Positions 36,881 through 60,710 of a stretch of DNA of 64,000 nt are shown here, one piece after another; within the stretch, counting starts at the first letter, position 1; the number at the start of each line of letters is the position of its first letter. A model generated the notes under the pieces. That model was not told the DNA's origin, did not search any database, and saw nothing but the letters and a program-made list of their open reading frames with translations. This DNA comes from Gammaproteobacteria bacterium (GTDB lineage Bacteria; Pseudomonadota; Gammaproteobacteria; UBA4575): NCBI GenBank assembly GCA_011523795.1, contig WTFY01000003.1, positions 1 to 64,000 of the forward strand, written 5' to 3'. Made by a program: the position numbers and the translations under genes.

Positions 36881-38257
36881 ATGAAAATTATGGCAAAAAT
36901 AAAAGCTAAGTGGATGCAAGGTAGTCTTGCGCTTGTTGGGGCGATACTTGCATCTACAATTGGCTTCCACACTACTGCCATGGCTGATGAGACTTGTATG
37001 TCTCCTTATATGGCTAAGATTGTCGGCCAAGAAGATTATGTATATGTTTGGACACTGGGTGTAGAAGGGCTTGGCGATGAGCAGGATAAGCTTGTTACAA
37101 TATCCGTCAACCCAAACTCTGTTAACTATGGAAAAGTAGTCAATGTACTTTCTGTAGGGGGTCGGAATGAAGCACATCACTCCGGCTTGACGGATGATCG
37201 ACGTTATCTGTTTGCAGGTGGTTTAGACAGTAACAAAATCTTTATCTTTGATGTCCACACCAATCCCAGTAAACCAACCCTGCATAAGGTAATTACTGAT
37301 TTTGTAGAGAAAACTGGTGGCATGGTAGGTCCGCATACAATGTATGCCTTGCCTGGCCGCATCCTTGTCAGCGCTTTATCCAATAATGTTGATCATGGTG
37401 GTAGGACCGGACTTGCCGAGTTCACGAATGAGGGTGAATTCGTAGCTGCCCATTGGATGCCGACAGACGAAAATATGCGCGGTGCCAAGAAGGTCGGGAA
37501 TATTGCTGACGGATATGGATATGATGTACGTGTATTGCCACGCAGAAACATAATGGTTACTTCCTCATTTACTGGATGGTCCAATTACATGATGGATTTC
37601 AGCAAGATGCTGGCCGATGCAGAAGCCATGAAACGCTTCGGCAATACCGTTGTCGTCTGGGATCTACATACTCGCAAACCAAAGAAAGTGTTTGAAGTAC
37701 CTGGCGCACCATTAGAGATTCGTTGTGCATGGGGTTCACGCAACAACTACTGTCTCACTACCACGGCATTGACTTCGCAAATTTGGTTGATTTATGAAGA
37801 CGATTCGGGTGAATGGCAAGCCAAAGCTGTAGGGGATATTGGTGATCCTTCTAAGGTGCCCCTGCCGGTGGATATCTCAATTACTGCAGATGACCAAGGT
37901 CTTTGGGTACAAACCTTCATGGATGGCAAGACTCGATATTTTGACATTTCGGACCCATTTAATCCGAAACAGATATATGAACATGTGATTGGCTCACAAG
38001 TGAATATGATTTCTCAAAGCTGGGATGGCAAGCGAACCTACTTCACATCTTCGTTGCTTGGTAACTGGGATAAAACAGGCGAATCTGATGAACAATTTTT
38101 CAAGTTGTTCAAGTGGAACGGTGAGGAACTTGTGCATGAGTTCACAGTGGATTTCTATGCACTGAAACTTGGGCGAGCCCATCAGATGCGATTTGGCGCC
38201 TATTCACTCTATTCACAAAAATCGAACTCCACAGGCACGCTGCTGTCTCAAAGGTAG
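36881..38257 (+). CDS. mtoX: Methanethiol oxidase (selenium-binding protein 56 family, MtoX)
   Basis: 458 residues with a signal peptide ending near TTAMA, so periplasmic. Bacterial SBP56 proteins oxidise methanethiol to formaldehyde, H2S and H2O2. Family blocks: YVYVWTLGVEGLGDEQDKLV, EAHHSGLTDDRRYLFAGGLDS, GPHTMYALPGRILVSALSN, YDVRVLPRRNIMVTSSFTGW and PLPVDISITADDQGLWVQ; conserved His residues are candidate copper ligands. SCO, MauG-like and thioredoxin genes around it match the known mtoX gene neighbourhood. Its formaldehyde would feed the fae pathway encoded from 42 kb. A terminator follows. Confidence 0.93.
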   Translation: MKIMAKIKAKWMQGSLALVGAILASTIGFHTTAMADETCMSPYMAKIVGQEDYVYVWTLGVEGLGDEQDKLVTISVNPNSVNYGKVVNVLSVGGRNEAHHSGLTDDRRYLFAGGLDSNKIFIFDVHTNPSKPTLHKVITDFVEKTGGMVGPHTMYALPGRILVSALSNNVDHGGRTGLAEFTNEGEFVAAHWMPTDENMRGAKKVGNIADGYGYDVRVLPRRNIMVTSSFTGWSNYMMDFSKMLADAEAMKRFGNTVVVWDLHTRKPKKVFEVPGAPLEIRCAWGSRNNYCLTTTALTSQIWLIYEDDSGEWQAKAVGDIGDPSKVPLPVDISITADDQGLWVQTFMDGKTRYFDISDPFNPKQIYEHVIGSQVNMISQSWDGKRTYFTSSLLGNWDKTGESDEQFFKLFKWNGEELVHEFTVDFYALKLGRAHQMRFGAYSLYSQKSNSTGTLLSQR

Positions 38258-38303
38258 CAAGCGCATTGCTTTTGCTATGGCGCTAATACGCGTATAAATG
38301 TGG

Positions 38304-38337
38304 AACAAGGCCGCCTGCGGGCGGCCTTGTTGTTTTT
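38304..38337 (+). terminator. Rho-independent terminator after mtoX
   Basis: A 12-bp GC-rich stem, aacaaggccgcc/ggcggccttgtt (38304-38315 with 38320-38331), 4-base loop, followed by gttttt. It separates a probably abundant mtoX transcript from the downstream maturation genes. Confidence 0.85.
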
Positions 38338-38355
38338 GAAGGGTTATTGCGGCTA

Positions 38356-39102
38356 ATGAGAAAAGTGTTCAGATACTTGATGCTGTGCGGGGTTATCTTT
38401 CTCGGAACGAGCTGTGATCAATCACCCGAGCATGACTCTTATCTCCCTGGTTCTCATGCAGCCCTTTCACAAATTAGAGTAATTGCAGATGGATGGAAGC
38501 CTGATTTGCCTTATGAAGTGCCTGAACCGGGAACTTATGACTTGCCAAGGATTCGGGCAGCTGGAGGTGGCAAGGTACTTGGCCCGGATGGGAATGAGTT
38601 GGAACTTGGGAATCTTATGGGTGATAAGATCGTCCTGCTGACGTTCATATATAGTAGCTGTAGAGATTTGAACGGTTGTCCTTTAGCTACAGCTGTATTC
38701 TACAAGGTGAAAGAACGGTTCAAGCATGATCTGGAACTTGCAGATAAGGTGCGTCTGATTAGCGTGAGCTTTGACCCTGAACACGACACACCAGAAGTTA
38801 TGAAATTATATGGTAAAGGGTTTGAAGAGGGTGACCCACAATGGATGTTTCTGACCACAGCTTCCGAAAATATTTTGGGGCCCATTATCAGCCACTATGG
38901 GCAGATGGTGATCAAGGAATATGATGAAAATGGTGAGTACAAAGGAACAATGGCACATGTTTTACGTGCATTTCTTATAGACATGTCAAAAAATATTAGA
39001 CAGGAATACAGCGTTTCGTTTTTGCATGACCAATTGGTTACAGCAGATATCAAAACGCTGCTTATTGAGCAAGGAGTATTAACTGCGCATACAGACTCGT
39101 GA
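38356..39102 (+). CDS. SCO-family lipoprotein with CX5C motif
   Basis: 248 residues from ATG 38356 (a TTG at 38347 is rejected). Lipobox LGTSC puts the lipidated cysteine at 20. The SCO thioredoxin fold has IYSSCRDLNGCPLA, a CX5C spacing (Cys102, Cys108) instead of the usual CX3C, plus SVSFDPEHDTPEVM and a distal His in AHVLRAFLID. It probably serves copper insertion or thiol reduction for MtoX or the adjacent di-heme protein. The stop overlaps the next ATG. Confidence 0.86.
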   Translation: MRKVFRYLMLCGVIFLGTSCDQSPEHDSYLPGSHAALSQIRVIADGWKPDLPYEVPEPGTYDLPRIRAAGGGKVLGPDGNELELGNLMGDKIVLLTFIYSSCRDLNGCPLATAVFYKVKERFKHDLELADKVRLISVSFDPEHDTPEVMKLYGKGFEEGDPQWMFLTTASENILGPIISHYGQMVIKEYDENGEYKGTMAHVLRAFLIDMSKNIRQEYSVSFLHDQLVTADIKTLLIEQGVLTAHTDS

Positions 39103-40451
39103 TGCAATTAATTAAAAGGTCAACTCTGAATTTCAATTTCCAGACCGTATTTAGTGTAATTTTCCTTGCTCTTGTACTGTTAGCCTCAGATGATGTTCTT
39201 GCCGACTTGAATGAGTTAGCAGATCACGCGGTATTTGGTCCTGGGGATAACAAAGAGGGTTATGAGTCGGCAGATTACCGGACCAATTCTCTGGACCTGG
39301 AAAAGCGTTTAGGCAAGGAAGCCAATCTGATAGATTTTGTAAATAACCCACCGTTGGGACTACCACCCGTTCCCATACCAGAAGACAATCCCATGACGAT
39401 TAAAAAAATCAAATTGGGAAGAAAGATGTTCTTCGATCGCCGTCTTTCTATCAATGACACTTTTTCTTGTGCAATTTGCCATATTCCTGAGCAGGGTTTT
39501 ACGAATAATGAGATTCAGACAGCTGTAGGCGTAGAGGGGCGCACAGTAAAGCGTAATTCGCCTACTATTTACAATTCCGCCTATCTGGAGAAGATTTTCC
39601 ATGATGGGCGCGAATCTACTCTAGAGCAGCAAGTTTGGTCACCATTACTAGCCAGGAATGAGATGGCTAATCCATCCATCGGGTATGTAATTAACAAGCT
39701 CAGGGCAATTCGTGAATATGATGGTCTGTTCGAAGGAGCTTTTCAGGGTCGTGGGCCGACCATGGAAACGATAGGTATGGCATTTGCTAATTATCAGCGA
39801 ACGCTGAATGCGGCTGATTCACCCTTTGATCGCTGGTATTACGGCAAAGATGAGGACGCAGTCAGTGAACAGGTAAAGCGTGGGTTCGAAGTGTTCATGG
39901 GCAAGGGTGGCTGTAGTGCATGTCATGTCCTCAACAAGAAATATGCCTTGTTCAGTGATAACCTTTTGCATAATACCGGGGTAGGATTCCAGGAATCCAT
40001 GGGTATAGAACCTAAGACCAGAAGAGTGCAGCTGGCCCCTGGTGTATACACGCATCTGGATACAAGCGTAATAAAGTCTGTATCAAGACCCAAGGAAAAT
40101 GATCTGGGTTTGTATGAGGTTACTGAAAATCCAAATGACCGATGGAAGTACCGTACACCTTCCTTACGAAATGTTTCTTTAACTGCGCCATACATGCATA
40201 ACGGTTCACTGTTGACCCTGCATGATGTTATGGTCTTCTACAATGATGGAGGCGTACCAAACGAGTTACTCAGTCCCTTGATTCGGCCATTGAATCTGAC
40301 TGATACTGAAATAGATGAATTGGTGTCGTTTCTGGAATCCTTGACGGGCAATAATGTCAATGTTTTGGTAAAGGATGCATTCGCCGCACCTATTGGTGAT
40401 ATCAGTCCTGATGATCCCAATTGGGCTCATGAGAATCAACTGAAATTCTAA
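39102..40451 (+). CDS. MauG/cytochrome-c-peroxidase-family di-heme protein
   Basis: 449 residues from ATG 39102, with a membrane-type signal segment ending near VLADL. Two haem-binding sites: CAICH (123-127) and CSACH (271-275). Peroxidase-family blocks include LGRKMFFDRRLSINDTFSC, NSPTIYNSAYLEKIFHDGR and RTPSLRNVSLTAPYMHNGSL. MauG-like proteins use H2O2 for post-translational oxidation; peroxidases remove it. Methanethiol oxidase makes H2O2, so either role fits. mauG-like genes accompany mtoX in other bacteria. Confidence 0.92.
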   Translation: MQLIKRSTLNFNFQTVFSVIFLALVLLASDDVLADLNELADHAVFGPGDNKEGYESADYRTNSLDLEKRLGKEANLIDFVNNPPLGLPPVPIPEDNPMTIKKIKLGRKMFFDRRLSINDTFSCAICHIPEQGFTNNEIQTAVGVEGRTVKRNSPTIYNSAYLEKIFHDGRESTLEQQVWSPLLARNEMANPSIGYVINKLRAIREYDGLFEGAFQGRGPTMETIGMAFANYQRTLNAADSPFDRWYYGKDEDAVSEQVKRGFEVFMGKGGCSACHVLNKKYALFSDNLLHNTGVGFQESMGIEPKTRRVQLAPGVYTHLDTSVIKSVSRPKENDLGLYEVTENPNDRWKYRTPSLRNVSLTAPYMHNGSLLTLHDVMVFYNDGGVPNELLSPLIRPLNLTDTEIDELVSFLESLTGNNVNVLVKDAFAAPIGDISPDDPNWAHENQLKF

Positions 40452-42412: not shown

Positions 42413-42757
42413 GTGGAAACGATGTTACTCGTACCTGGCCGATCTCAGAGTCAAGGGACATCCCTGAACAAAGGTAAGCTGAAGGATGAATATCTGGTAG
42501 TGACTGCGACTGCTGAATTGAATGAGAATGATATGCGTAGATTAAAACTTGTAGATGGTGACAAGATTCGGTTGGCGTCAGAAGTAGGACAGACAGTCGT
42601 GGCATGTAAAGCCAAGAAGCAGGATGATTTACCTGAGGGAATGATTTTTATTCCATATGGACCATCATCAAGCCAATTGATGGGATCAGACACGGCAGCA
42701 TCAGGTATGCCCATGTCGAAACATATGGAGGTCAGTGTGGAAAAAGTAGAAAGTTAA
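42413..42757 (+). CDS. FwdD-like subunit of formylmethanofuran dehydrogenase (molybdopterin-dinucleotide-binding domain)
   Basis: 114 residues from GTG 42413 (aggg at 42399-42402 plus g); ATG 42422 is an alternative and the longer frame from 42338 would begin inside the hairpin leader. LLVPGRSQSQGT, GKLKDEYLVVTATAELNEND and PEGMIFIPYGPSSSQLMGSDTAASGMP resemble archaeal FwdD/FmdD, the subunit that closes the Mo/W-pterin site. It directly precedes fhcB. As far as I recall, the M. extorquens fhc operon has no such gene. It suggests that the cofactor is present in this complex. Confidence 0.85.
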   Translation: METMLLVPGRSQSQGTSLNKGKLKDEYLVVTATAELNENDMRRLKLVDGDKIRLASEVGQTVVACKAKKQDDLPEGMIFIPYGPSSSQLMGSDTAASGMPMSKHMEVSVEKVES

Positions 42758-42782
42758 ACCGAGAATCGTGTCAGGAAAAGCT

Positions 42783-44144
42783 ATGCCAGAACCCAATCAA
42801 CCAAGCCCTAAAGAAAAAAACAAAAATATCAAGATTGTGAAAGATGCAACTTGCACATTCTGCGGTTGTGTCTGTGATGATATGGAACTTACTGTTGATC
42901 TTGACGAACATCGCATCACAAAGGCCAAGAGAGCTTGTGTACTTGGCCGTGCATGGTTTTACGAGCATACCCTGGAAGATAGACCGGTGGTACTCATTGA
43001 TGGCAAAGAGGCAACACTTGAAGAAGGTATGGATGTTGCTGCCCAGATCTTGGTAGATGCAAAGTTTCCTATTACCTATGGCCTCAGTGACTGTACCTGT
43101 GAAGCACAGCGCATTGCTGTCGACATCATGGATACGATCAATGGCAATATCGATACAACTACGTCAGTGTGTCACGGCCCTTCGGGTATGGCGTTTCAAG
43201 GTGTCGGTGAAAGTACCGCTACGCTTGGTGAAATTAGAAACAGGGCAGACCTTGTGATCTATTGGGGTGGCAATCCAGCAGAATCTCATCCGCGTCATTT
43301 CACGCGTTATGCGGTGACTCCAAAAGGCATGTACATCCCCAATGGGAAAAAAGACCGTACGGTTGTCTTGGTAGATGTGCGCAAAACTCCAAGCACACCT
43401 GTCGCCGATATTTTTGTGCGAGTCAAACCCGGAAAGGATTTTGAAGTGTTATGGGCGTTACGTGCGCTGGTCAAAGGGAAAAGAATAAGTAATGACATTG
43501 AAGAGCAGACGGGTGTTTCGAGGGAAATGCTCGATGATCTGGTTTACCGTATGAAAAACTGCCAGTACGGGATACTGTTTTTGGGTATGGGTTTAACAAT
43601 GACGCGTGGACGTCATTTCAATTCGGGTGCAATTTATTCGCTGGCAGCGGATCTCAATGAATATACCCACTTTGTTGCCAAACCTGTGCGTGGCCATGGG
43701 AATGTAACAGGTGCGGACAATGTGGTTTCCTGGCAGACAGGTTATCCATTCGGAGTCAATTTTAATCGTGGATTTCCCAGATTTAATCCGGGAGAGTTCA
43801 CAACTAGTGATTTACTTGCTAGAGGTGAAACGGATGCGGCCATGATTATAGCTTCAGATCCAGCATCCAACTTCTCAAAGAAAGCCATCGAACATTTGGC
43901 AAAAATTCCAGTTATCACAATGGATGCCAAGGAAACGCATACGACCAAACTTTCAAAAGTTCGATTTGCAGTTGCAACCTATGGAATCAATACGGGCGGC
44001 ACAGTGTACAGAATGGATGATATACCCATTTCCCTGCGCCCTGCTTTTGACTCACCATTCCCAACAGACCAGGAAATACTTGAAGGGATACGCCAGCGTA
44101 TAAGAAAACTTTTGACAGGAAGCAAAGCAAGAACTGCATTTTAG
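42783..44144 (+). CDS. fhcB: Formylmethanofuran dehydrogenase subunit B / FhcB, metal-site-retaining type
   Basis: 453 residues from ATG 42783 (aggaaaag at 42773-42780); GTG 42768 is the alternative. Archaeal FwdB features are kept: N-terminal 4Fe-4S cysteines 24, 27, 31 and 52 (CTFCGCVC ... RACVLGRAW) and TSVCHGPSGMAF, whose Cys130 corresponds to the Mo/W-ligand Cys or Sec of FwdB. NRADLVIYWGGNPAESHPRH, PVRGHGNVTGADNV, GYPFGVNFNRGFPRFNPGE and MIIASDPASNF follow the archaeal sequence closely. It would oxidise the formate released by FhcA to CO2, or be structural if the metals are absent. Confidence 0.93.
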   Translation: MPEPNQPSPKEKNKNIKIVKDATCTFCGCVCDDMELTVDLDEHRITKAKRACVLGRAWFYEHTLEDRPVVLIDGKEATLEEGMDVAAQILVDAKFPITYGLSDCTCEAQRIAVDIMDTINGNIDTTTSVCHGPSGMAFQGVGESTATLGEIRNRADLVIYWGGNPAESHPRHFTRYAVTPKGMYIPNGKKDRTVVLVDVRKTPSTPVADIFVRVKPGKDFEVLWALRALVKGKRISNDIEEQTGVSREMLDDLVYRMKNCQYGILFLGMGLTMTRGRHFNSGAIYSLAADLNEYTHFVAKPVRGHGNVTGADNVVSWQTGYPFGVNFNRGFPRFNPGEFTTSDLLARGETDAAMIIASDPASNFSKKAIEHLAKIPVITMDAKETHTTKLSKVRFAVATYGINTGGTVYRMDDIPISLRPAFDSPFPTDQEILEGIRQRIRKLLTGSKARTAF

Positions 44145-44215
44145 GAGCTTTATTGCCTGTTGGCCTTCATGGTGCGGTTTGGCAGTAACCACGTGACTAT
44201 AGTAGCCAAAAAGAG

Positions 44216-45862
44216 ATGTCGTCTGAATTAATAATTGTAAATGGTCAGGTATATGACCCTGCCAATCATGTAGATGGAGAGGTCAAGGATATATGTGTCA
44301 GAGATGGCAAGATTGTAGAATCTGTATCGAAGTCTGCAACTAGGATTGATGCGCATGGCATGGTCGTGATGCCAGGTGCTATTGACATTCATTGTCATAT
44401 TGCAGGGCCCAAGGTGAATCTGGCTCGAAAATTAATGCCGGAAGATCATCGTCTGGACGTTCATCCCAAAACTGCGGTTACACGCTCAGGTACTGGAGGC
44501 ATTGTTCCTTCGACATTTGCAACTGGTTACCGTTATTGCACTATGGGCTATACGACTGCCATGGAAGCGGCTGTTCCTCCAATTACTGCAAGACATGTAT
44601 TGGAAGAGCTAGACGACACACCAGTGATTGACAAGGGATTCTATGTGCTGCTGGGGAATAACGCCTTCCTATACAAATTATTGAAAGAGGGGCGGAAAAA
44701 TGAATTCAAGGAGGCGATTGCATGGTGGGTTAATGCCGTACATGCATACACTGTAAAACTAGTAAATACTGGCAGCGATGAGCTATGGAAAGGCCGAAAA
44801 AATGCAAACATCACGAACGTGAACGAAAACATTGATCATTACGACATTACTCCTGTTCATGTGATGGAAAGTTTTATTGAGGCAGCACACGAATTAGGGT
44901 TACCCCATCCTCCCCACATTCACTGCAATAACTTGGGACACAGCGGTAATATCAGCACTACGCTGGATACGATGAAAGCGGCGCAAGGCAGGCGTGTACA
45001 TATGGCTCATGTCCAGTTTCACAGCTTTGGCGGTGAATTGAATAAAAACCCTGTATCTGGTGCAAGAGAGATTATCGATTACATAAACGACCATGAAAAT
45101 ATCACTTCAGATGTGGGTCAAGTCATGTTTGGTAAGGCTACTGCAATGACGGCAGATGCTCCGCTTGCCTGGATGCTGCGCAATGTCAAGCTTGACAAGT
45201 GGGTAAATGCAGATACGGAATGTGAGAGTGGTTGTGGAATCCTTCCATTTTCTTACCAAGAGGCTATCTACACGCACACACTGCAGTGGGCAATGGGTTT
45301 GGAATTGTTTTTGATGTCTAAAGACCCATGGAGAGTATTGATGTCCACTGACCATCCTAATGGGGGTTCATTTATGAACTATCCAAAGTTAATCAAATTA
45401 TTGATGGACAGTGCTTATCGAAGAGAGGCATTAAGCCACCTGAATCAAAAAGCCATAAATAAAACAGTATTGAGCGACTTAGACCGTGAGTACACCCTGA
45501 ATGAGATTGCAATCATTACACGCGCGGGACCTGCAAGAGCGTTGGGTTTGGCAAACAAGGGCCATCTGGGAGTGGGGGCAGATGCTGACATCACGATATA
45601 CACAGAAGAAGAAGACAGGGAGCAGATGTTTAATGCGCCCCGTTACGTGATTAAAGACGGTATAACTGTAATCAAGGATCATGAATTTGCGACTGATCAC
45701 CGAGGTAAAATTCTGCATTCCAAACCAGGCTACAATGAAGACATCGCAGGTGAAATAGAACCATTTTTTGAAGATTATTATTCAGTCAAGTTCAGCAACT
45801 ATGCTGTCAGTGATGACTATCTGCATCTTCATGAGGAAATTCCTACGCATCCAAAATCATGA
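44216..45862 (+). CDS. fhcA: Formylmethanofuran hydrolase subunit A / FhcA
   Basis: 548 residues, an amidohydrolase-fold subunit that hydrolyses formyl-methanofuran (or its bacterial analogue) to formate. Di-zinc ligands are visible: DIHCHIAGP (HxH), the lysine in AYTVKLVNTGSDE, HCNNLGHSG, MAHVQFHSFGG and STDHPNGGSF. The 71-base gap after fhcB holds no gene. Its last codons overlap fhcD by 4 bases (ATGA). Confidence 0.96.
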   Translation: MSSELIIVNGQVYDPANHVDGEVKDICVRDGKIVESVSKSATRIDAHGMVVMPGAIDIHCHIAGPKVNLARKLMPEDHRLDVHPKTAVTRSGTGGIVPSTFATGYRYCTMGYTTAMEAAVPPITARHVLEELDDTPVIDKGFYVLLGNNAFLYKLLKEGRKNEFKEAIAWWVNAVHAYTVKLVNTGSDELWKGRKNANITNVNENIDHYDITPVHVMESFIEAAHELGLPHPPHIHCNNLGHSGNISTTLDTMKAAQGRRVHMAHVQFHSFGGELNKNPVSGAREIIDYINDHENITSDVGQVMFGKATAMTADAPLAWMLRNVKLDKWVNADTECESGCGILPFSYQEAIYTHTLQWAMGLELFLMSKDPWRVLMSTDHPNGGSFMNYPKLIKLLMDSAYRREALSHLNQKAINKTVLSDLDREYTLNEIAIITRAGPARALGLANKGHLGVGADADITIYTEEEDREQMFNAPRYVIKDGITVIKDHEFATDHRGKILHSKPGYNEDIAGEIEPFFEDYYSVKFSNYAVSDDYLHLHEEIPTHPKS

Positions 45863-46758
45863 AGATTGGAAAAACAGAAATCGCTGATACATTTGCAGAA
45901 GCTTTTGAAATGTGGGGTGCTCGTATCATTATTACAGCTGACAGCAAGCAGTGGGCGCGCGCCGCAGCCGCTTCGATGACAGGATTTGCAACTTCTGTCA
46001 TTCGCTGCAAGCTCGAAGCTGCAGTTGAATGTGAAATTCGCAAAGAAGATACACCTGATAACCGCCCAGGAGTCAGTGTGCTGCTGTTCACAATGAGTGG
46101 GAAAACAATTGCAGGTCAGTTAATTGACCGGATAGGACAATGCGTGATGACATGTCCGACGACTGCGGCATATAACGGGATCGAGTCAGATAAAACAGTT
46201 TCAGTTGGTGGGAAATTACGTTTCTTTGGTGACGGGTACCAGATCAGCAAGGTTTTATGTGGCCGAAGGATCTGGCGTATCCCCATTATGGAAGGTGAGT
46301 TCCTGATCGAGGATACATTTGGAATTCAGCCAGCTGTAGGTGGTGGAAATTTGATAATTCTTGGCACTAGCAAATACTCAGCATTACAAGCTGCAACTGC
46401 TGCAAGCAGTGCCATGCGGGAGGTTGCTGGTGTATTCCTGCCATTTCCTCAAGGAGTAGTGGGTTCAGGGAGTAAGATAGGTTCACGATACAAGGCCATG
46501 ATAGCTTCAACGAATGATATGTATTGTCCAACCCTGCGTTCGATTGCCAACAATGGCGTTCTGCCTGACAATGTGGAGGCCGTTTATGAGATTGTTGTGG
46601 ACGGACTGAATGAAGAAGCTGTGAAAGAGGCCATGCGTCGAGGCATGCACGCTGCTGCAAGAAAAGGAATTATAATGATCACTGCTGGAAATTACGGTGG
46701 AAAATTAGGGAAATATAAATTCAGCTTGCATGAAATTATAAACGGAACAGTTAGTTAA
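45859..46758 (+). CDS. fhcD: Formylmethanofuran:tetrahydromethanopterin formyltransferase (FhcD/Ftr)
   Basis: 299 residues, usual Ftr length. It moves the formyl group between H4MPT and methanofuran. Blocks: IADTFAEAFEMWGARIIITAD, CKLEAAVECEI, RPGVSVLLFTMSGKT, CVMTCPTTAAYNGIE and KIGSRYKAMIASTNDMYCPTL. It is translationally coupled to fhcA and precedes fhcC, giving the order B-A-D-C. Confidence 0.96.
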   Translation: MKIGKTEIADTFAEAFEMWGARIIITADSKQWARAAAASMTGFATSVIRCKLEAAVECEIRKEDTPDNRPGVSVLLFTMSGKTIAGQLIDRIGQCVMTCPTTAAYNGIESDKTVSVGGKLRFFGDGYQISKVLCGRRIWRIPIMEGEFLIEDTFGIQPAVGGGNLIILGTSKYSALQAATAASSAMREVAGVFLPFPQGVVGSGSKIGSRYKAMIASTNDMYCPTLRSIANNGVLPDNVEAVYEIVVDGLNEEAVKEAMRRGMHAAARKGIIMITAGNYGGKLGKYKFSLHEIINGTVS

Positions 46759-46779
46759 AACGATTTATTCAATTGATTT

Positions 46780-47595
46780 ATGACAACACTTCTGAGTTTG
46801 CATTCCCAGCCGGATGTTCCATTAGAGGCTGACACAATCAGCCCTGACGCAATTACAGGATTGTCTGAGTTAGGCATTGAACATTTGCAGGTTTTACATG
46901 GAAATATCAAGGCGAGGGTTGGCGACTTTTTTAAAGTGACTGGGAAGGGTGTCTCCGACATCTGTTTAGAAGGCGATTTGAGCAAAGTAAAGATGATCGG
47001 AGCCAGCATGTCAGTCGGGAGTATTACGGTTGAAGGCAATGTTGGCATGCATGTTGGCATAGGCATGTCAGGGGGCCAGATACTGGTCAAGGGCGACGCA
47101 TCAGACTGGGTAGGTCCTGAGATGACGGGTGGACGCATAATTGTCAAGGGAAATGCTGGGCACATGGTAGGCAGCGCATTCCGCGGACAGGCTGTTGGAA
47201 TTACAGGTGGAGAAATCTTCATTCATGGTGATGCGAAGAATGAGATAGGCAATTCCATGCGACGCGGGCTGATTGTAATCGGTGGTGATGCGGGAGATTT
47301 TACAGGAGTAAACATGCGCGCAGGTACAATCATCGTTATGGGCAAGATGGGTATTCGTACAGGCGCTGGAATGATACGCGGAACAGTCGCTTGTTTCGAG
47401 GATGCACCAATGTTGCCTAGTTTTGAATATTCGTGTAAATATCAGCCTTTATTCTTGCGCCTTTACCTGATAAGGCTGCAGAAAAATGGGTTCGAAAACA
47501 AAATAGAGGACAGACACCTGAACGGTAAATACAGACGCTTCAGCGGAGACGGGATTGAACTTAATCGTGGTGAGATCTTGCTTTACTTGCGGTAA
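46780..47595 (+). CDS. fhcC: Formylmethanofuran dehydrogenase subunit C / FhcC
   Basis: 271 residues. The central part is a right-handed beta-helix of Gly-rich repeats (SVGSITVEGNVGMHVGIGMS, GGRIIVKGNAGHMVGSAF, RRGLIVIGGDAGDFTG), as in FwdC and the glutamate synthase GXGXG domain. It scaffolds FhcA and FhcD. Last subunit gene; fdxA follows. Confidence 0.95.
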   Translation: MTTLLSLHSQPDVPLEADTISPDAITGLSELGIEHLQVLHGNIKARVGDFFKVTGKGVSDICLEGDLSKVKMIGASMSVGSITVEGNVGMHVGIGMSGGQILVKGDASDWVGPEMTGGRIIVKGNAGHMVGSAFRGQAVGITGGEIFIHGDAKNEIGNSMRRGLIVIGGDAGDFTGVNMRAGTIIVMGKMGIRTGAGMIRGTVACFEDAPMLPSFEYSCKYQPLFLRLYLIRLQKNGFENKIEDRHLNGKYRRFSGDGIELNRGEILLYLR

Positions 47596-47669: not shown

Positions 47670-47975
47670 ATGACTACAGTTGTAACAGAAAATTGTAAAG
47701 GATGCAGATTCACAGACTGTGTAGCAGTGTGCCCTGTTGCATGCTTTCACTATGATGATGAAATGCTTTATATAGATCCGGATGTCTGTATTGATTGCAG
47801 TGCCTGTATTCCGGAGTGTCCGGTAGAGGCAATATTTGAGGAGGACGATTTGCCGGAAGGCCTCGAAAATTGGGTAGAAATCAATGCGGAAAAAGCTCCT
47901 GATCTGCCTTTGATTGAAGAACCTATGGAACCACTCCCTGAAGCGGAAGATCGAAAGGCTGATCTGGGCTTTTGA
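47670..47975 (+). CDS. fdxA: 7Fe/8Fe ferredoxin, FdxA type
   Basis: 101 residues. CKGCRFTDCVAVCPVACF and CIDCSACIPECPVEAIF give two clusters (3Fe-4S plus 4Fe-4S pattern of FdxA), with the C-terminal acidic tail PLPEAEDRK. Its place between fhcC and a ferredoxin-NADP reductase suggests that it accepts electrons from the FhcB/FwdD metal subunit. Archaeal complexes use FwdF/G polyferredoxins instead, which are absent here. Confidence 0.93.
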   Translation: MTTVVTENCKGCRFTDCVAVCPVACFHYDDEMLYIDPDVCIDCSACIPECPVEAIFEEDDLPEGLENWVEINAEKAPDLPLIEEPMEPLPEAEDRKADLGF

Positions 47976-48066: not shown

Positions 48067-49449
48067 ATGAGTAAGTCAGGGGGCAGTTCAGTACCGCTGA
48101 GTGTCGCAATTGTAGGTAGTGGCCCAAGCGGGTTTTATTCTACGGAAGCGTTGATCAAGTCAGGTATCAATGTAGAGATAGATTTGATTGATCGTCTCCC
48201 CGCACCGTATGGTTTGGTACGGAGTGGAGTAGCTCCTGATCATCCAAAGCTCAAGCAGGCAATCGAGGTATATAAGAAAATTGCTCAAAGTAATGAGTTC
48301 AATTTTGTAGGGAATGTGACAGTTGGCCGAGATATCGAAGCAGAAGAACTGCAACGGACGCATCATGCGGTTATTTATACATGTGGCGCTGAAACTGACC
48401 GCAAGCTAGGTATACCGGGTGAGGAGTTAGCTGGCAGCCATACTGCCACCGAGTTTGTAGGCTGGTATAACGGTCATCCTGACTATCGGAACCTGAACTT
48501 TGACTTGTCTCATGAAACTGCAGTAGTTATCGGGCAGGGTAATGTAGCAGCAGATGTGGCCAGGATATTGGCAAAGTCTGTTGATGAACTAAAGCATACT
48601 GATATTGCACAACACGCGCTTGACGCACTTGCCAGCAGCCAGGTGAGAAAGATCTATGTAGTGGGTCGACGAGGTCCAGCGCAGGCAAAGTTCACTTCTA
48701 AGGAACTTAAGGAATTTTTGGAAATTGGAAACTGCCGCCCTTATATTGATCCAGTTGAACTTGAGTTGAACTCGACAAGCTTGCAGGAGCTTGATGCAAA
48801 AGAAGGCAGAGGAAATAAAAGGAATATTGAAATATTTCGAAAGTTTGCAGAATCCGAGGATACAGGCAAGCAACGAACCTGTATTTCCACTTTCTTGAAA
48901 AGTCCGATTCGCTTGCAGGGTGTGGACCGGCTGCAAAAAGTTGTATTTGAGGAAAATGACCTGTCAGGTGAGCCCTTTAAGCAGTCTGCAAAGGGAACAG
49001 GTAGAACCATGGAATTAGAGTGTGGACTTCTATTTCGCAGTATCGGCTATAATGGCGTCCCCATTCCAGGCGTGCCATTTAACGATAGGTGGGGCACCAT
49101 TCCAAACCGGGCAGGGAGAATTACTTCTGAGCAGGAGGGTGCTGTGTTACCCGGTTTGTATACTGCCGGCTGGATCAAGCGTGGCCCCTCTGGAATCATT
49201 GGCACCAATCGAGCTTGTGCGGTGGAGTCAGTAAATGCTTTGCTTGAAGATGTAGACCAGCTTGTTGCGGAAGACAAACCCGGCCGTAATGGCCTGTATG
49301 CCATACTCGAACGTAATGGCGTACAGCACATTAATTTTGCACAGTGGGAAAAAATCGATGCAGCAGAAATTGCTGCAGGAAGTCCCAAGGGCAAACCTCG
49401 CGAAAAATTTACCTATTATAATGAGATGCTAGCTGCTGCCAAAGGCTGA
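48067..49449 (+). CDS. Ferredoxin-NADP+ reductase, adrenodoxin-reductase (FprA) type
   Basis: 460 residues. FAD site VAIVGSGPSGFYSTEAL; PYGLVRSGVAPDHPKLK; NADP site VIGQGNVAADVARIL; VVGRRGPAQAKFTSKE; and the terminal GWIKRGPSGIIGTNR. It passes electrons between NADPH and a ferredoxin. Directly downstream of fdxA, it would turn reduced ferredoxin from formate oxidation into NADPH. A 20-base imperfect palindrome (48027-48046, agctaat/attagct arms) lies just upstream and may be an operator. Confidence 0.93.
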   Translation: MSKSGGSSVPLSVAIVGSGPSGFYSTEALIKSGINVEIDLIDRLPAPYGLVRSGVAPDHPKLKQAIEVYKKIAQSNEFNFVGNVTVGRDIEAEELQRTHHAVIYTCGAETDRKLGIPGEELAGSHTATEFVGWYNGHPDYRNLNFDLSHETAVVIGQGNVAADVARILAKSVDELKHTDIAQHALDALASSQVRKIYVVGRRGPAQAKFTSKELKEFLEIGNCRPYIDPVELELNSTSLQELDAKEGRGNKRNIEIFRKFAESEDTGKQRTCISTFLKSPIRLQGVDRLQKVVFEENDLSGEPFKQSAKGTGRTMELECGLLFRSIGYNGVPIPGVPFNDRWGTIPNRAGRITSEQEGAVLPGLYTAGWIKRGPSGIIGTNRACAVESVNALLEDVDQLVAEDKPGRNGLYAILERNGVQHINFAQWEKIDAAEIAAGSPKGKPREKFTYYNEMLAAAKG

Positions 49450-51765: not shown

Positions 51766-51958
51766 TATGAGCTGCTGCATGTCATATAACCGGCTCAGCA
51801 GTATTGTTTTTACCTGTAGTTAAGCTATGACAGTATATGCTCAAAAGTAACTTGTGTACTTTACTTTCCGGAATTTCTGGAGGGCCTACCACTTTACAAA
51901 ATGTGTTATGACGCCAAGAAAAATTTCCAGGGTCAGAATCACTGAATTTAATAAAATT

Positions 51959-52954
51959 ATGTACATGAACAGCCCGCAGGTATATATCAAGGCACCAGCT
52001 CGCCTGCATCTAGGATTTCTGGATCTTGAGGGTAGCTTGGGGAGACGGTTTGGTAGCCTTGGACTCACACTCGATGGGATTGCTACACGCATCGTTGCAA
52101 GGCGTGATAGTCATTTCAATGTGCTTGGCAAGCCTGATGAACGGGTGGTGAAACTAGCAGAAAGATTTTTTGAGATCAAAGGATTGCCCGGTGGATGTGA
52201 AATTGAAGTGTTGGAGCAGATACCCGCCCATTCGGGACTAGGTTCTGGAACTCAGCTTGCGCTTGCAGTAGGAACTGCGATTTCCAAGCTCTATTCACTT
52301 GGATTTTCCTGTGAGGATATTGCTGTTACCTTAGATCGAGGCAAAAGATCTGGAGTTGGAATCGGCGCATTTCAACATGGTGGATTTCTGCTAGATGCAG
52401 GGAAAAATCAGAGCAATTTTATTCCACCCATTGTATCGAGGATTGCATTCCCATCTAAATGGCGTGTGGTTCTCATCATGGATTCGGCTTCGCACGGCTT
52501 GTATGGAGATGATGAAAGCACTTCATTTTCTAGCTTACCTCCAGTCTCTTCTGATATAGCATCATACCTGTGCAGGTTGACTTTGATGCAAATTATGCCA
52601 GCAGTGTCAGAGCAGGATTTGGGTACATTCAGCAAAGGAATTCATGACCTGCAGCGATGTATGAGTGATTTTTTCGCATCACAGCAAGGTGGACGTTATA
52701 CTAGTCATGTAGTCGGAGATGCGATTGGTTACATAGAGTCGCTGGGAATTAAGGGTGTAGGACAAAGCTCTTGGGGACCAATAGGATTTGCCTTTGTAGG
52801 CAGTGAAGAGCAGGCACTTGTACTGTTACGTGCCTTGCAGGAAGAGTTCAGGAAAAAGAAAGAATTACAATTCAAGATAGTTTCAGGGCGAAACACAGGA
52901 GCTGTGGTTCAGCAGCAAGGCACGGTATCTTTGCCTGCAGCAGCAAAATTCTGA
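51959..52954 (+). CDS. Beta-ribofuranosylaminobenzene 5'-phosphate synthase
   Basis: 331 residues from ATG 51959 (ATG 51965 or 51908 are alternatives; the frame itself opens at GTG 51854). A GHMP-kinase-fold enzyme that joins pABA and PRPP with loss of CO2 and PPi, the first committed step to H4MPT. APARLHLGFLDLEGSLGRRF, EQIPAHSGLGSGTQLALAVG (GHMP glycine loop), GKRSGVGIGAFQHGGF and GVGQSSWGPIGFAF are family blocks. pabB at the right end of the window would supply its substrate. Confidence 0.93.
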   Translation: MYMNSPQVYIKAPARLHLGFLDLEGSLGRRFGSLGLTLDGIATRIVARRDSHFNVLGKPDERVVKLAERFFEIKGLPGGCEIEVLEQIPAHSGLGSGTQLALAVGTAISKLYSLGFSCEDIAVTLDRGKRSGVGIGAFQHGGFLLDAGKNQSNFIPPIVSRIAFPSKWRVVLIMDSASHGLYGDDESTSFSSLPPVSSDIASYLCRLTLMQIMPAVSEQDLGTFSKGIHDLQRCMSDFFASQQGGRYTSHVVGDAIGYIESLGIKGVGQSSWGPIGFAFVGSEEQALVLLRALQEEFRKKKELQFKIVSGRNTGAVVQQQGTVSLPAAAKF

Positions 52955-53031
52955 AAATTCAATACATGCGGGAACACACAGCTAATCGTGCAGGGTGATT
53001 AATTAATACAGAATAATTGTGAGAGGGAATA

Positions 53032-53934
53032 ATGGAAAAGCCACAAATTTTGCACATGATTACCCCGGCTAAGAATCTAAGCCCATTTGATGTGAATATG
53101 GCTCTAGATGCAGGGTGGGGTCATGCAGTGGGCTACACTGATGTTGAAAAAGAGGAGGTGCAAGGTCTGATCCAGGATGCAATTTTTTCTCGAGGGCCCG
53201 CTGGCGCGAAGCGAACCGGAGTGTTTTTAGGCGGGCGGGATATGCATGTCGCAATGGAAATGTTGCAGATTTGCAAGGAATCAATGGTGCCACCTTTTGA
53301 AGCCTCCTGTTTCGCTGATCCCAGCGGTGCATTCACAACTGCTGCAGGAATGGTGGCTTGTGTCGAGCATACCCTTGAAGAAAAATTCAGTACGAGCCTC
53401 CAAGGGAAACAGGTTGTGATAATGGGAGGTACAGGTCCAGTGGGTTCTACGGCTGCTGTTTTGGCAGCCAATGCCAGGGCAATTGTATACATTCTTGGTC
53501 GAAACAAAGAAAAATCTGAGAAAGTTGCTACTTTGTGTAATCGGGAGTATGGCCAGGGAACCACAGAAATTCGCGGGGAAGCGAACGAAGTGATACATGA
53601 ATTAATGCAAAATACAGACGTAGTACTTGCCGCAGGTGCTGCTGGGGTGCAGCTTGTTTCTGCAAAAAATATTGAAAGTTCAAGTGAGCTGAAGGTTGCT
53701 GCAGATGTTAATGCTGTACCACCTTCAGGTGTTGCAGGACTTGATGTGATGGGAAACTGTAAACCTATTGAAGGTTCAGGCAGTGGTGCAGTCGGTATTG
53801 GTGCACTGGTTATTGGTAATGTGAAATACCAGACGCAGCATAGGTTATTGCAAAAAATGTGTGGTGCAGAAAAGCCGACATATCTGCACTTTGAGCATGC
53901 CTTCGAAACAGCCAGGGAGATTGCCCGGGAGTAG
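53032..53934 (+). CDS. mtdB: NAD(P)-dependent methylene-H4MPT dehydrogenase
   Basis: 300 residues from ATG 53032 (tgagaggg upstream). It oxidises methylene-H4MPT to methenyl-H4MPT. HMITPAKNLSPFDVNMALDAG, FLGGRDMHVAMEML, CFADPSGAFTTAAGMV and the nucleotide site VIMGGTGPVGSTAAVLAAN are typical of MtdB (and close to MtdA). H4MPT context favours MtdB. The stop TAG at 53932-53934 abuts the next gene. Confidence 0.94.
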   Translation: MEKPQILHMITPAKNLSPFDVNMALDAGWGHAVGYTDVEKEEVQGLIQDAIFSRGPAGAKRTGVFLGGRDMHVAMEMLQICKESMVPPFEASCFADPSGAFTTAAGMVACVEHTLEEKFSTSLQGKQVVIMGGTGPVGSTAAVLAANARAIVYILGRNKEKSEKVATLCNREYGQGTTEIRGEANEVIHELMQNTDVVLAAGAAGVQLVSAKNIESSSELKVAADVNAVPPSGVAGLDVMGNCKPIEGSGSGAVGIGALVIGNVKYQTQHRLLQKMCGAEKPTYLHFEHAFETAREIARE

Positions 53935-53937
53935 AAG

Positions 53938-55059
53938 ATTTTTCTGGTTGTAGCCATCTCTGGCCGCGCTATTGCTGAATCCTTGAAAGCCTGTGGCTAT
54001 TCTGTGGCTGTTGTTGACGGGTTTTGCGACATGGATACATGTTCTGTTGCTGATGCCAGTCTAAAAGTGTCACGAAAAACATCAGGCCTGGATAGTAGTG
54101 AAACTCTCGAGGCTGTGCAGAATTTGCGTAACACGTACCACCTGAAAGGTTTGTTTTACGATGCTGCCTTGGAGTTTGATCCCGACATGCTGGATGCTGT
54201 CTCATTTGACAAGGTCATTGGCAATTCAAGTGCTACTCTGCGAATGTGCAAAGATCCAGAAGTATTTTTTTCGGTACTTGATGCAAACCAAATTCCGTAT
54301 CCAGAGATCAGTTTCAAGCCTGTGCAGGGTGACGAAGAGCAATGGTTGTGCAAAAGGTCAAGGAGTGCAGGCGGTACTGGTGTCACTACATTGACTGGTC
54401 CTCAGGAACAGGACCAAGGATCTTACTATCAGCGTAAATTAGAGGGCGTGCCCTTTTCATTGACATTCTTGTCTAATGGTCAAAACCTGCATGCATTGGG
54501 ATTCAATACCTTGTGGTGCAGGGATGCCGAGCCCGGTATGCCTTTCCTATACGAAGGAGCAATCAATCACGCCAATCTTACAGATGAACAACGACTCGCC
54601 GCTTTGGGTTATACAACCAGCTTGGTTCATGAATTTGAGTTGGTCGGATTAAACAGTATCGATTTTATTCTTTCAAATGGACATGTTTTCGTGCTTGAAG
54701 TAAATCCACGTATTCCTGCGACCTTTGAATTATATGAGACCAGACAGGGTAGCCTGATAAGAAATCACATAGATGCTTGTGTGCATGCTAGACTCAACCC
54801 GGCACCGGGAAGAACAAAGTTGCATGCACATGTTATCGTTTATTCTCCAGCCACAATGTGTGTCCCGAGCAGCTTTAACTGGCCATTATGGACAGCGGAT
54901 CGGCCTCATCCAGGGGAAGTCATCCGTAAAAATGAACCTCTATGCAGTGTATTTGCTGGAGGTAAAAATGTGTCTCAGGCATGTACTGCGGTGTGGTCGC
55001 GCAAGCAGGTCATTTTGGACATGTTCATGCAGGCAGGATCGAAATCTTTTAAATCTTGA
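53938..55059 (+). CDS. ATP-grasp ligase of the H4MPT cluster, apparently starting at ATT
   Basis: 373 residues if translation starts at ATT 53938, where ccgggag ends 6 bases upstream. The conserved-looking N-terminus FLVVAISGRAIAESLKACGY precedes the first standard start (TTG 53983) and would be lost with it. ATP-grasp features: WLCKRSRSAGGTGV (ATP loop), YYQRKLEGVPFSLTFL, GLNSIDFIL and VLEVNPRIPATFELYE (metal-binding E...N). It is related to the predicted carboligases found in methylotroph H4MPT clusters; substrate unknown. It is followed by mch with an 11-base gap. Confidence 0.85.
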   Translation: MFLVVAISGRAIAESLKACGYSVAVVDGFCDMDTCSVADASLKVSRKTSGLDSSETLEAVQNLRNTYHLKGLFYDAALEFDPDMLDAVSFDKVIGNSSATLRMCKDPEVFFSVLDANQIPYPEISFKPVQGDEEQWLCKRSRSAGGTGVTTLTGPQEQDQGSYYQRKLEGVPFSLTFLSNGQNLHALGFNTLWCRDAEPGMPFLYEGAINHANLTDEQRLAALGYTTSLVHEFELVGLNSIDFILSNGHVFVLEVNPRIPATFELYETRQGSLIRNHIDACVHARLNPAPGRTKLHAHVIVYSPATMCVPSSFNWPLWTADRPHPGEVIRKNEPLCSVFAGGKNVSQACTAVWSRKQVILDMFMQAGSKSFKS

Positions 55060-55070
55060 AAAGAGAACTA

Positions 55071-56024
55071 ATGATGCAAAATGTAAGTATAAATCGGTTA
55101 GTAAAGCCGTTAGTTCAGGAACTGATAGACAAGAACAGCGCTTTGAGAGTTGAGGTGGGTGAATTCAGTAATGGTGCAAAATTCATCGACGCAGGAATAG
55201 GCTGCACCGGTGGTCTTGAAGCTGGCCGGGTCATAGGAGAAATTTGTATGGGAGGACTGGGAACGATAACACTGTATCATGCGACAGCTGTGAGTGACTG
55301 GCCACTTTCCCTTCATGTTCATTCATCCAATCCTGTCCTAGCATGTTTGGCAAGCCAGTATGCTGGCTGGAGCTTATCGCATGAAGAATTTCATGCTCTG
55401 GGTTCTGGGCCGGGCCGCGCAATTGCGCGTAAAGAGTCCCTATTTGATGATTTAGGTTATGAAGATACTTGCGACAGTGCAACATTTGTGCTTGAAGTGG
55501 ACCGGGCTCCTCCGGTGGCGCTCATTGACCGAATTGCCGAAACATGCAAGCTGGTGCCAGAAGCGTTGACATTTATTCTAACACCTACCAGGTCCATTGC
55601 AGGAACCGTGCAGATTGTTTCCAGAGTGCTGGAAGTTGCTATGCACAAGGTTCATGTGTTGGGGTTTCCTCTTGACGATATCATGGACGGCTCTGCAAGC
55701 GCACCACTATCTCCACCAGCACCTGATTTTGCAAAAGCTATGGAACGCACCAATACGACTATTCTGTTTGCCGGTAGAGTACATCTATTTGTTCGTGGAG
55801 ATGATGCAAGTGCTGAAAAACTTGCCAAGGAGCTTCCATCCAGCTCATCTGCTGATTACGGCAAGCCCTTTGCAGGTATACTTGAAGACTGTGGATATGA
55901 CTTTTTCAAAATTGATCCAATGTTGTTCAGCCCTGCATGGGTGGCAGTTACATCAGTTGAAAGTGGTCGAACCTTCCAAGGTGGTCAACTGGCCCCAGAC
56001 TTGCTAGCAGATTCGTTCTCCTGA
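55071..56024 (+). CDS. mch: Methenyl-H4MPT cyclohydrolase
   Basis: 317 residues from ATG 55071 (agaga upstream); a TTG frame overlapping the previous gene is rejected. It hydrolyses methenyl-H4MPT to formyl-H4MPT. FIDAGIGCTGGLEAGRVIGEICMGG, HALGSGPGRAIARKE and FGYDFFKIDP-like YDFFKIDPMLFSPA are family blocks. It sits between two ATP-grasp genes. Confidence 0.95.
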   Translation: MMQNVSINRLVKPLVQELIDKNSALRVEVGEFSNGAKFIDAGIGCTGGLEAGRVIGEICMGGLGTITLYHATAVSDWPLSLHVHSSNPVLACLASQYAGWSLSHEEFHALGSGPGRAIARKESLFDDLGYEDTCDSATFVLEVDRAPPVALIDRIAETCKLVPEALTFILTPTRSIAGTVQIVSRVLEVAMHKVHVLGFPLDDIMDGSASAPLSPPAPDFAKAMERTNTTILFAGRVHLFVRGDDASAEKLAKELPSSSSADYGKPFAGILEDCGYDFFKIDPMLFSPAWVAVTSVESGRTFQGGQLAPDLLADSFS

Positions 56025-56954: not shown

Positions 56955-57175
56955 GAAGGGATTGCACATATAAAATAAGTCTTTGTCGGGATAGTGCTCC
57001 AAGCATTGACACTGCTAAATCTTCATCTACAGGTAAGGGGAGTTCAAGGCTTATCACCAGAGGTCCGCAAGTTGCATCCTGTGATCTTGTTTCGAGGAAT
57101 CCCACAAATCTGTTTCACCCTGCTTTGCCAGCAAATACTTGAATTCTTGTCGCAATTTCAACATTACTTCTCACG

Positions 57176-58030: not shown

Positions 58031-58033
58031 GTA

Positions 58034-58042
58034 TGGTATAAT
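58034..58042 (+). promoter_or_regulatory. Extended -10 promoter of fae
   Basis: tggtataat: an extended TG motif (58034-58035) with a perfect tataat at 58037-58042 and no good -35. The transcription start would be near 58049. It shares tatggta with the fwd/fhc promoter. Confidence 0.6.
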
Positions 58043-58127
58043 TCAGCGCTGCTAGCGTGATCCAACAGGGTACAAGCGGACCTGTGGTCTGCAGTTATCG
58101 ACAATAAAATGAAACAGGAGAACTATA

Positions 58128-58655: not shown

Positions 58656-58680
58656 TCTCAATTTTGAGAAAGGCTATGAA

Positions 58681-58710
58681 AATGCCCCGCAATTGCGGGG
58701 CATTTTTTTT
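58681..58710 (+). terminator. Rho-independent terminator after fae
   Basis: A perfect 10-bp stem aatgccccgc/gcggggcatt (58681-58690 with 58695-58704), 4-base loop, followed by a run of T to 58710. Confidence 0.92.
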
Positions 58711-60699: not shown

Positions 60700-60710
60700 T
60701 ATGGGTTAAG

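Follow-up and report, generated by a model that had tools for sequence, protein, structure and literature searches.

A seven-gene gammaproteobacterial operon predicted to encode a tungsten- or molybdenum-dependent formylmethanofuran dehydrogenase linked to NADP

The bacterial, H4MPT-dependent oxidation of formaldehyde is taught as ending with hydrolysis to free formate, which is then taken up by a separate formate dehydrogenase (FDH), and the metal-containing formylmethanofuran dehydrogenase has so far been studied, to our knowledge, only in archaea. An fhc operon of a gammaproteobacterium (assembly GCA_011523795.1), located in the first 64,000 nucleotides of contig WTFY01000003.1 (hereafter the window), raises the question of whether some bacteria close the pathway in the archaeal manner. 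The original prediction was that the operon specifies a full Mo/W formylmethanofuran dehydrogenase which oxidises formate to CO2 inside the complex, with electrons conserved. Alignment, predicted fold, phylogeny and the cofactor genes of the genome lend support to this reading, and we consider it likely, from sequences and structural models, that the operon encodes a complete W- or Mo-dependent enzyme, joined to its formyltransferase and wired to NADP.

The operon and its neighbourhood

Open reading frame calls recovered, at their reported positions, the five genes already recognised (fwdD, fhcB, fhcA, ftr/fhcD and fhcC), and extended the operon to seven genes in the order fwdD-fhcB-fhcA-ftr-fhcC-fdxA-fprA, the last two specifying a 7Fe ferredoxin and an FprA-type ferredoxin-NADP reductase (Table 1). 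Neighbourhood comparison showed that this order is kept across dozens of genomes and the operon is under strong purifying selection, so that the arrangement is not due to chance. A scan for promoters and terminators gave signals at chance level only, and a plasmid collection searched with FhcB returned no match. The host is related to sponge-associated bacteria.

Table 1. Positions of the operon genes and of neighbouring one-carbon genes in the window
Feature	Position	Strand	Basis
fwdD, molybdopterin-dinucleotide-binding subunit D	42413..42757	+	GTG start; frame open from 42338; PF01568, NCBIfam FwdD, PDB FwdD
fhcB/fwdB, catalytic subunit	42768..44144	+	GTG 42768 or ATG 42783; TIGR03129
fhcA/fwdA, amidohydrolase subunit, binuclear metal site	44216..45862	+	TIGR03121
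fhcD/ftr, formylmethanofuran:H4MPT formyltransferase	45859..46758	+	TIGR03119, PF01913, PF02741
fhcC/fwdC, beta-helical scaffold subunit	46780..47595	+	TIGR03122
fdxA, ferredoxin with two clusters (7Fe type), proposed to accept electrons from FhcB	47670..47975	+	Azotobacter FdI match, NCBIfam FdxA, same place in most relatives
FprA/adrenodoxin-reductase-type ferredoxin-NADP reductase	48067..49449	+	FprA and adrenodoxin reductase matches
mtoX, methanethiol oxidase	36881-38257	+	MtoX NF052453, 765 bits (cut-off 650)
SCO1 (38347), MauG-like di-haem peroxidase (39099)	within 36881..40451	+	PF02630, PF03150
H4MPT genes: GHMP-fold RFAP-synthase-like (51854), mtdB (53032), ATP-grasp (53983), mch (55056)	51854..56024	+	PF00288, PF09176, PF02655; mch TIGR03120, 380 bits
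H4MPT/methylofuran-pathway-type genes: RimK-like (56028), CitG-like (57176), fae (58128-58655), PTPS (58734), ATP-grasp (60711), hydantoinase-A-like (61699)	56028..62748	+	Pfam; fae TIGR03126, 232 bits
HisA-like, amid the H4MPT/methylofuran-pathway-type genes	59992-60699	-	Pfam

FhcA, FhcB, FhcC and Ftr, the components of a formyltransferase/hydrolase complex, are thus encoded together, with matches of 701 bits for FhcA, 420 bits for FhcD and 262 bits for FhcC to their family models. The mtoX, SCO1 and MauG-like genes are the likely source of formaldehyde, and mtoX lies upstream of the full-type locus in the relatives L046-L049, L051, L052 and L056 too. In the mechanism that we propose, formaldehyde from the adjacent MtoX would enter the H4MPT pathway via Fae, MtdB and Mch, Ftr would transfer the formyl group to methylofuran, and FhcA would hydrolyse formyl-methylofuran to formate in an inner cavity. 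FhcB and FwdD would then oxidise this formate, yielding CO2, at a W/Mo-bisMGD that has Cys135 as its ligand, with participation of His136 and Arg308; the electrons would leave FhcB through its only 4Fe-4S cluster and travel via FdxA and the FprA-type reductase to NADP+. The last one-carbon step of formaldehyde oxidation would in this way probably yield CO2 and NADPH directly, without formate release.

The catalytic subunit and its partners

FhcB matches TIGR03129 with 501 bits (cut-off 328), and among PDB sequences it scores 371-377 bits to archaeal FwdB, compared with 52 bits to the FhcB of Methylorubrum. Its identity to the archaeal FwdB chains 5t5i_B and 8rja_B is 41-42%, and its predicted structure superposes on both with a TM of 0.93 and an rmsd of 2.0 (about 2 Å), versus a TM of 0.86-0.88 and an rmsd of 3.2-3.4 for Methylorubrum FhcB. 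As the original prediction had claimed, cysteines 24, 27, 31, 52 and 130, counted from ATG 42783, occupy cluster and metal positions, aligning with C9, C12, C16, C35 and C118 of FwdB. Numbered from GTG 42768, as we do here, the 4Fe-4S cysteines are C29, C32, C36 and C57 and the Mo/W ligand is C135, accompanied by H136 and R308; judged by alignment, the entire archaeal FwdB active site is retained. In the tree, full-type FhcB clusters with archaeal FwdB and apart from degenerate FhcB (SH-aLRT 92), a result in favour of the original prediction.

One premise did not hold, namely that the four N-terminal cysteines mark the metal form: we rejected them as a marker because each is retained in 40-45 of the 45 degenerate FhcB. 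The residues C118, H119 and R288 (FwdB numbering) are present in all five archaeal and all 85 full-type bacterial proteins and absent from all 45 degenerate ones. At the alignment level, the diagnostic of the predicted metal form is therefore the Mo/W-ligand Cys, taken together with the adjacent His and the Arg farther along the chain. Two apparent degenerate FhcB carrying Cys-His-Arg (L072 and L041) turned out to be formate dehydrogenases. More broadly, 21 of the 55 residues invariant in the archaeal and full-type proteins are missing from the degenerate group.

The other subunits are in keeping with this picture. The FwdD-like subunit, correctly placed directly upstream of fhcB in the original prediction, is the one which completes the dinucleotide site; it exceeds the cut-off of PF01568 (43.8 bits), its best NCBIfam match is FwdD with 80 bits, under that model's strict cut-off of 175, and in the PDB it matched the FwdD entries 2ki8, 9sfi and 5t5i, its model reaching a TM of 0.81 to 5t5i_D. 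FwdD is found near full-type fhcB in 76 of the 80 named loci. FhcA keeps the binuclear-metal ligands and the catalytic Asp of FwdA, since H59, H61, K66, K181, H236 and D379 align with H57, H59, K64, K178, H231 and D385 of 5t5i_A. The operon therefore resembles archaeal FwdABCDFG (M. wolfei, 5t5i) by its A/B/C/D subunits, catalytic Cys-His-Arg, 4Fe-4S cysteines, FwdA metal residues and fold, but it lacks FwdF/FwdG, includes Ftr, is followed by fdxA and an NADP reductase, and belongs to a bacterial host with MtdB/Fae formaldehyde oxidation.

A candidate electron route to NADP

The FwdF/FwdG polyferredoxin module is present in methanogens and is not universal. None was found in the operon or its neighbourhood, where a single FdxA stands instead. 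This ferredoxin matches the Azotobacter FdI 7Fe ferredoxin with 105 bits and the NCBIfam FdxA model with 113.6 bits (below the cut-off of 135), and the reductase scores 370 bits to FprA and 340 to adrenodoxin reductase. Lying downstream of fhcC and overlooked in the original prediction, the pair provides a concrete candidate route for the conserved electrons.

The fdxA/fnr pair occurs at 47 of the 70 full-type loci long enough to tell. In Methylococcales, its place is taken by a fusion protein of FwdD with a CysJ-like NADPH diflavin reductase; a reductase of this type is found at nine of the 70 loci (eight seen fused, one with Ns). The Methylococcales fusion scores above the NCBI CysJ cut-off and would therefore be named a sulfite reductase, a likely mis-annotation. 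That two unrelated NADP reductases occupy one place argues that FhcB passes electrons. Genome-wide, the FNR (at least 59% identity) is present in 13 of 14 genomes with full FhcB, compared with 3 of the 355 remaining genomes of the class (Fisher 2.6e-20). We found no description of NADP-reductase modules at bacterial fwd loci in the literature searched.

An unlikely alternative is that FhcB oxidises formate to CO2 but delivers the electrons to a different ferredoxin or to a carrier of the respiratory chain, FdxA/FprA serving some other route such as sulphur or nitrogen metabolism. The 11 of 70 loci with neither reductase close by (Planctomycetes, Chloroflexi and some Alphaproteobacteria) would suit it, as would the three genomes having FNR without full FhcB (G085, G246 and G332), but it fits poorly with the fusion of one reductase to FwdD, the recruitment of two in different lineages and the strength of the FNR co-occurrence. 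FdxA and NADP are the acceptors that we infer.

An archaeal precedent exists in the Fwd of Ca. Ethanoperedens (8rja), which is coupled to a flavin-dependent F420 reductase (PMC11493965). The likeness lies in the oxidative direction, proposed here, and in a direct link between the dehydrogenase and a flavin reductase that serves a soluble hydride carrier. The proteins differ, the archaeal complex using F420 with a bound F420 reductase and the bacterial one, as proposed, NADP via FdxA/FprA or the CysJ-like module. Bacterial FwdB and fwdDBA-ftr-fwdC operons are known already: those of the Hakuba Actinobacteria, as described in the available portion of that report, share the order fwdD-B-A-ftr-C, the catalytic Cys118, the 4Fe-4S domain and a bacterial host, and lack FwdEFG, but they belong to a Wood-Ljungdahl context, in genomes lacking the genes for H4MPT synthesis, and the same portion describes no NADP reductase module (PMC7325909).

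Cofactor supply and the fate of formate

The genome encodes MoaA, MoeA, MobA and FdhD for synthesis and insertion of a Mo/W cofactor, together with a TupABC-type tungstate importer, which bears out the expectation of cofactor and transport genes. TupA scores 236 bits to the TupA model and 222 to 3lr1, the TupA and TupB matches lying below strict NCBIfam equivalog cut-offs; no ModB exceeded its cut-off in the genome, a weak 92-bit match leading to TupB. These genes are indirect evidence of a bound metal, presumed to be tungsten rather than molybdenum. Two further Mo-bisPGD-type enzymes, acetylene-hydratase-like, could be another reason for the cofactor genes and FdhD.

No FDH alpha subunit was detected above cut-off in this genome (G000) or in G180, G039 and G287, which carry full-type FhcB only, nor was an NAD-dependent FDH detected in G000; FDH was found in all 20 sampled genomes with degenerate FhcB. 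G174 has full-type FhcB only, yet possesses an FDH, and at 97% completeness of our assembly a missing FDH is no proof of absence. The PF00384 matches in our genome were one NuoG and the two acetylene-hydratase-like proteins, which lack the FDH Cys-His motif, and a high-scoring match in G209, first taken as FDH, was a NasA-type nitrate reductase (CMSS motif).

The complex might still be an ordinary Fhc which only releases formate, with FhcB and FwdD as a scaffold and the conserved cysteines inherited but idle. The Methylorubrum homologue works in this way, its FhcB being a scaffold without Mo/W-bisPGD (PMC10100899), and the four cluster cysteines persist in degenerate gammaproteobacterial FhcB despite loss of the Mo ligand, so that the cysteines alone prove little. 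We judge this improbable, given the invariance of the Mo ligand, His and Arg in the full-type proteins, the retention of FwdD, the coexistence of both FhcB types, side by side in several genomes, and a formate that would have no detected consumer in the genome. Methylorubrum extorquens Fhc (6s6y) is similar in encoding FhcA, FhcB, FhcC and Ftr together and in its role in formyl-H4MPT disposal, but it has no Mo/W cofactor in FhcB and releases formate, whereas the present operon has an intact FhcB site and a FwdD, in a genome without a detected FDH.

The standard potential of NADPH is about -320 mV. That the same metal enzyme works in reverse, NADPH reducing CO2 to formyl-MFR through FdxA for one-carbon supply as in methanogens and CO2-fixing archaea, is very improbable: archaeal Fwd is reversible (PMC11656701) and no formate-THF ligase was detected in the genome, so another source of one-carbon units might be useful, but the CO2/formyl-MFR couple lies near -530 mV (PMC11656701), well under NADPH, no energy coupling is visible, and the presence of mtoX, fae, mtdB and mch points to formaldehyde oxidation as the natural direction.

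A metal-loaded FhcB working oxidatively, with CO2 as its product, hence remains our preferred reading. We are inclined to think that these loci represent a widespread bacterial Fwd branch for aerobic-type formaldehyde oxidation without free formate, in which an often tungsten-dependent FwdBD would feed NADP+ by way of either of two reductases recruited independently (FdxA/FprA, or the CysJ-like diflavin protein fused to FwdD) and would replace FDH in some lineages. Genomes holding metal and metal-free versions side by side offer a natural comparison. One scan of species genomes returned 403 matching loci. Should the clade prove active, an archaeal-type metal enzyme which bypasses free formate and makes NADPH directly would be present in many bacteria, and CO2/formate chemistry would gain a formylmethanofuran dehydrogenase of bacterial origin that may tolerate oxygen better.

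Active site and partner subunits of FhcB

We call full-type the FhcB proteins which keep an archaeal FwdB-like Mo/W site, and degenerate those which have lost it, as in Methylorubrum. The FhcB of the window aligned over its whole length with archaeal FwdB (371-377 bits), but only partially with Methylorubrum FhcB (52 bits). Residues were compared among 5 archaeal FwdB from the PDB, 85 full-type proteins and 47 low-identity proteins (45 degenerate FhcB and 2 formate dehydrogenases, FDH). The Mo/W ligand C118 of FwdB (C135 in our protein), the adjoining histidine (H119/H136) and a distant arginine (R288/R308) were present in all archaeal and full-type proteins and in none of the 45 degenerate FhcB; 21 of the 55 residues invariant across the archaeal and full-type proteins were lost in the degenerate group. 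Two low-identity proteins with Cys-His-Arg were rejected as degenerate FhcB, being the formate dehydrogenases.

The original prediction took five FhcB cysteines as ligands of the 4Fe-4S cluster and the metal. The list was correct, but the fifth alone is diagnostic: with the 2 FDH removed, the four cluster cysteines are retained in 40, 45, 40 and 42 of the 45 degenerate FhcB, and on this alignment they do not separate the two types. Degenerate proteins such as that of locus L036 (see table) may still bind a cluster despite the lost Mo/W site.

The predicted FhcB structure (pLDDT 86.6) superimposed on archaeal 8rja_B and 5t5i_B with a TM of 0.93 and an rmsd of about 2 Å, the next-best match being metal-free Methylorubrum FhcB (TM 0.86-0.88, rmsd 3.2-3.4). 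The FwdD model best matched archaeal FwdD. By alignment, FhcA retained the metal ligands, the inner-cavity lysine and the catalytic aspartate. The roles given to these residues follow PMC11656701 and general knowledge of FwdA.

Distribution and phylogeny

Identity to our FhcB across 369 genomes of the class was two-humped, with full-type proteins at 66-76% and degenerate ones at about 20-31%. The full type occurred in 14 of the 369, many others having the degenerate form only; several genomes carry both, often in tandem. A scan of GTDB genomes gave 403 loci; represented among the best 80 are Gammaproteobacteria (many MAGs, Thiotrichaceae, Legionellales, Methylococcales, ca. Porisulfidus), Beta- and Alphaproteobacteria, Gemmatimonadota, Chloroflexota and Planctomycetota. 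The nearest relatives, at 94% identity, are the MAGs APA_bin and COS4_bin, sponge-derived to judge from their names. In a tree built by a quick method (SH-aLRT only), whose several long branches call for care with the joins, full-type and degenerate FhcB each formed one clade (99 for both), and the full type grouped with archaeal FwdB (92). A previous survey found 149 bacterial FwdB and attributed them to transfer from Archaea (PMC10100899), and another article describes fwdDBA-ftr-fwdC with Cys118 in Actinobacteria without H4MPT synthesis genes (PMC7325909).

The operon and its proposed electron partners

The assembly (2.07 Mb, 97% complete, gammaproteobacterial) carries the window on its contig C22, where seven consecutive genes, from fwdD to an FprA-type reductase, are separated by 10-92 bases or overlap. 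Assignment of the Fhc/Fwd subunits to their families is firm by sequence. Compared with close relatives, all seven genes show four-fold sites close to saturation and second codon positions that have hardly changed, which indicates purifying selection on each of them.

Coordinates of the operon and of other features
Feature	Position	Strand	Remarks
fwdD	42413-42757	+	
fhcB	42768-44144	+	
fhcA	44216-45862	+	
ftr	45859-46758	+	
fhcC	46780-47595	+	
fdxA	47670-47975	+	nearest match Azotobacter 7Fe FdI
FprA-type ferredoxin-NADP reductase	48067-49449	+	nearest FprA/adrenodoxin reductase
mtoX, SCO1, MauG, TlpA-like (methanethiol oxidase cluster)	36881-41330		window; mtoX kept there in close relatives
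Small ORF	33974-34315		window; Cys-rich repeat (GEGKCGEGKCGEDKSEE)
FwdD-CysJ-like fusion (L102, L106, L107, L108, L113, L115, L116, L120)	upstream of fhcB	-	Methylococcales
Aldehyde ferredoxin oxidoreductase (L119, L122, L123)	2.7-2.8 kb upstream of fhcB	-	planctomycete full-type loci; divergent from fwdD-fhcB
Pyr_redox_2 protein (~1,180 aa) and 2-oxoacid:ferredoxin oxidoreductase (L112, L117)	13.8-19.3 kb		alphaproteobacterial full-type loci; downstream
Degenerate fhcB (L036)	14015-15253		example of the degenerate group, which lacks the Mo/W site
Acetylene-hydratase/DMSOR-like enzyme (L130)	749-3103		own genome, contig C7
Acetylene-hydratase/DMSOR-like enzyme (L132)	1674-3839		own genome, contig C18
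TupABC-type importer	5.6-7.9 kb		own genome, contig C4

Among the best 80 of the 403 loci, fwdD lies close to full-type fhcB in 76. Ten of the 80 were set aside, their contigs ending too early. Of the 70 informative loci, 47 have fdxA and/or the ferredoxin-NADP reductase gene inside the cluster, 9 a CysJ-like diflavin reductase and 3 aldehyde ferredoxin oxidoreductase as only candidate; 11 have none of these. Eight of the nine diflavin loci read as fusions (one cut by a contig end) and the ninth contains Ns. In Methylococcales the fusion is one protein of 730-758 aa with Molydop_binding, flavodoxin, FAD and NAD domains; it exceeds the NCBI cut-off for CysJ and would be named a sulfite reductase flavoprotein. 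Ferredoxin-NADP reductase at 59% identity or more was found in 13 of the 14 full-type genomes versus 3 of the 355 others, a co-occurrence which spans about ten families, with counts not adjusted for relatedness. The best evidence that FhcB would pass on electrons, with NADP as end acceptor, is the recruitment of two unrelated NADP reductases to the same dehydrogenase, one of them fused to the cofactor-covering FwdD. The proteins downstream at L112 and L117 possibly form another electron route. Aldehyde ferredoxin oxidoreductase is a tungsten-enzyme family. We found no report in the open-access literature of the fdxA/fprA module at a fwd operon, of the FwdD-diflavin module or of FDH replacement by full-type Fwd.

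Metal supply, formate dehydrogenase and proposed working

The genome encodes MoaA, MoeA (adjoining MoaE- and Mog-like genes), MobA and FdhD. Since it has a TupABC-type importer and a profile search gave no ModB over the cut-off, tungsten is the likelier metal of the complex; its TupA scores 236 bits to the TupA model, which falls short of that model's strict 400, and matches 3lr1, a tungstate-binding protein, with 222 bits. Its two acetylene-hydratase/DMSOR-like molybdopterin enzymes each adjoin an FAD/NAD(P) reductase.

Searches of the same genome gave no FDH-alpha over the cut-off, no NAD-FDH and no formate-THF ligase. FDH was present in all 20 tested genomes with intact degenerate FhcB and absent from 4 of the 5 with full-type FhcB only, G174 being the exception; G209, with degenerate fragments only, was left outside either group. 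Because the four FDH-lacking genomes represent about three independent lineages, this gene-content pattern is suggestive of full-type FhcB going with missing FDH.

Among the other genes of the window are fae, mtdB, mch and several of the pterin pathway; mtoX-sco1-mauG lies upstream of the operon, as in close relatives. In the proposed working, methanethiol would yield formaldehyde, which would be converted to methylene-, methenyl- and then formyl-H4MPT; Ftr would transfer the formyl group to methanofuran (MFR), FhcA would release formate from formyl-MFR in the cavity, and FhcB/FwdD would oxidize it to CO2. An archaeal Fwd coupled to a flavin-dependent F420 reductase offers a precedent (PMC11493965). 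The CO2/formyl-MFR couple, at about -0.53 V (PMC11656701), is well below NADP, so the oxidative direction is downhill, and the electrons from FhcB/FwdD would flow through FdxA and FprA to NADP+.
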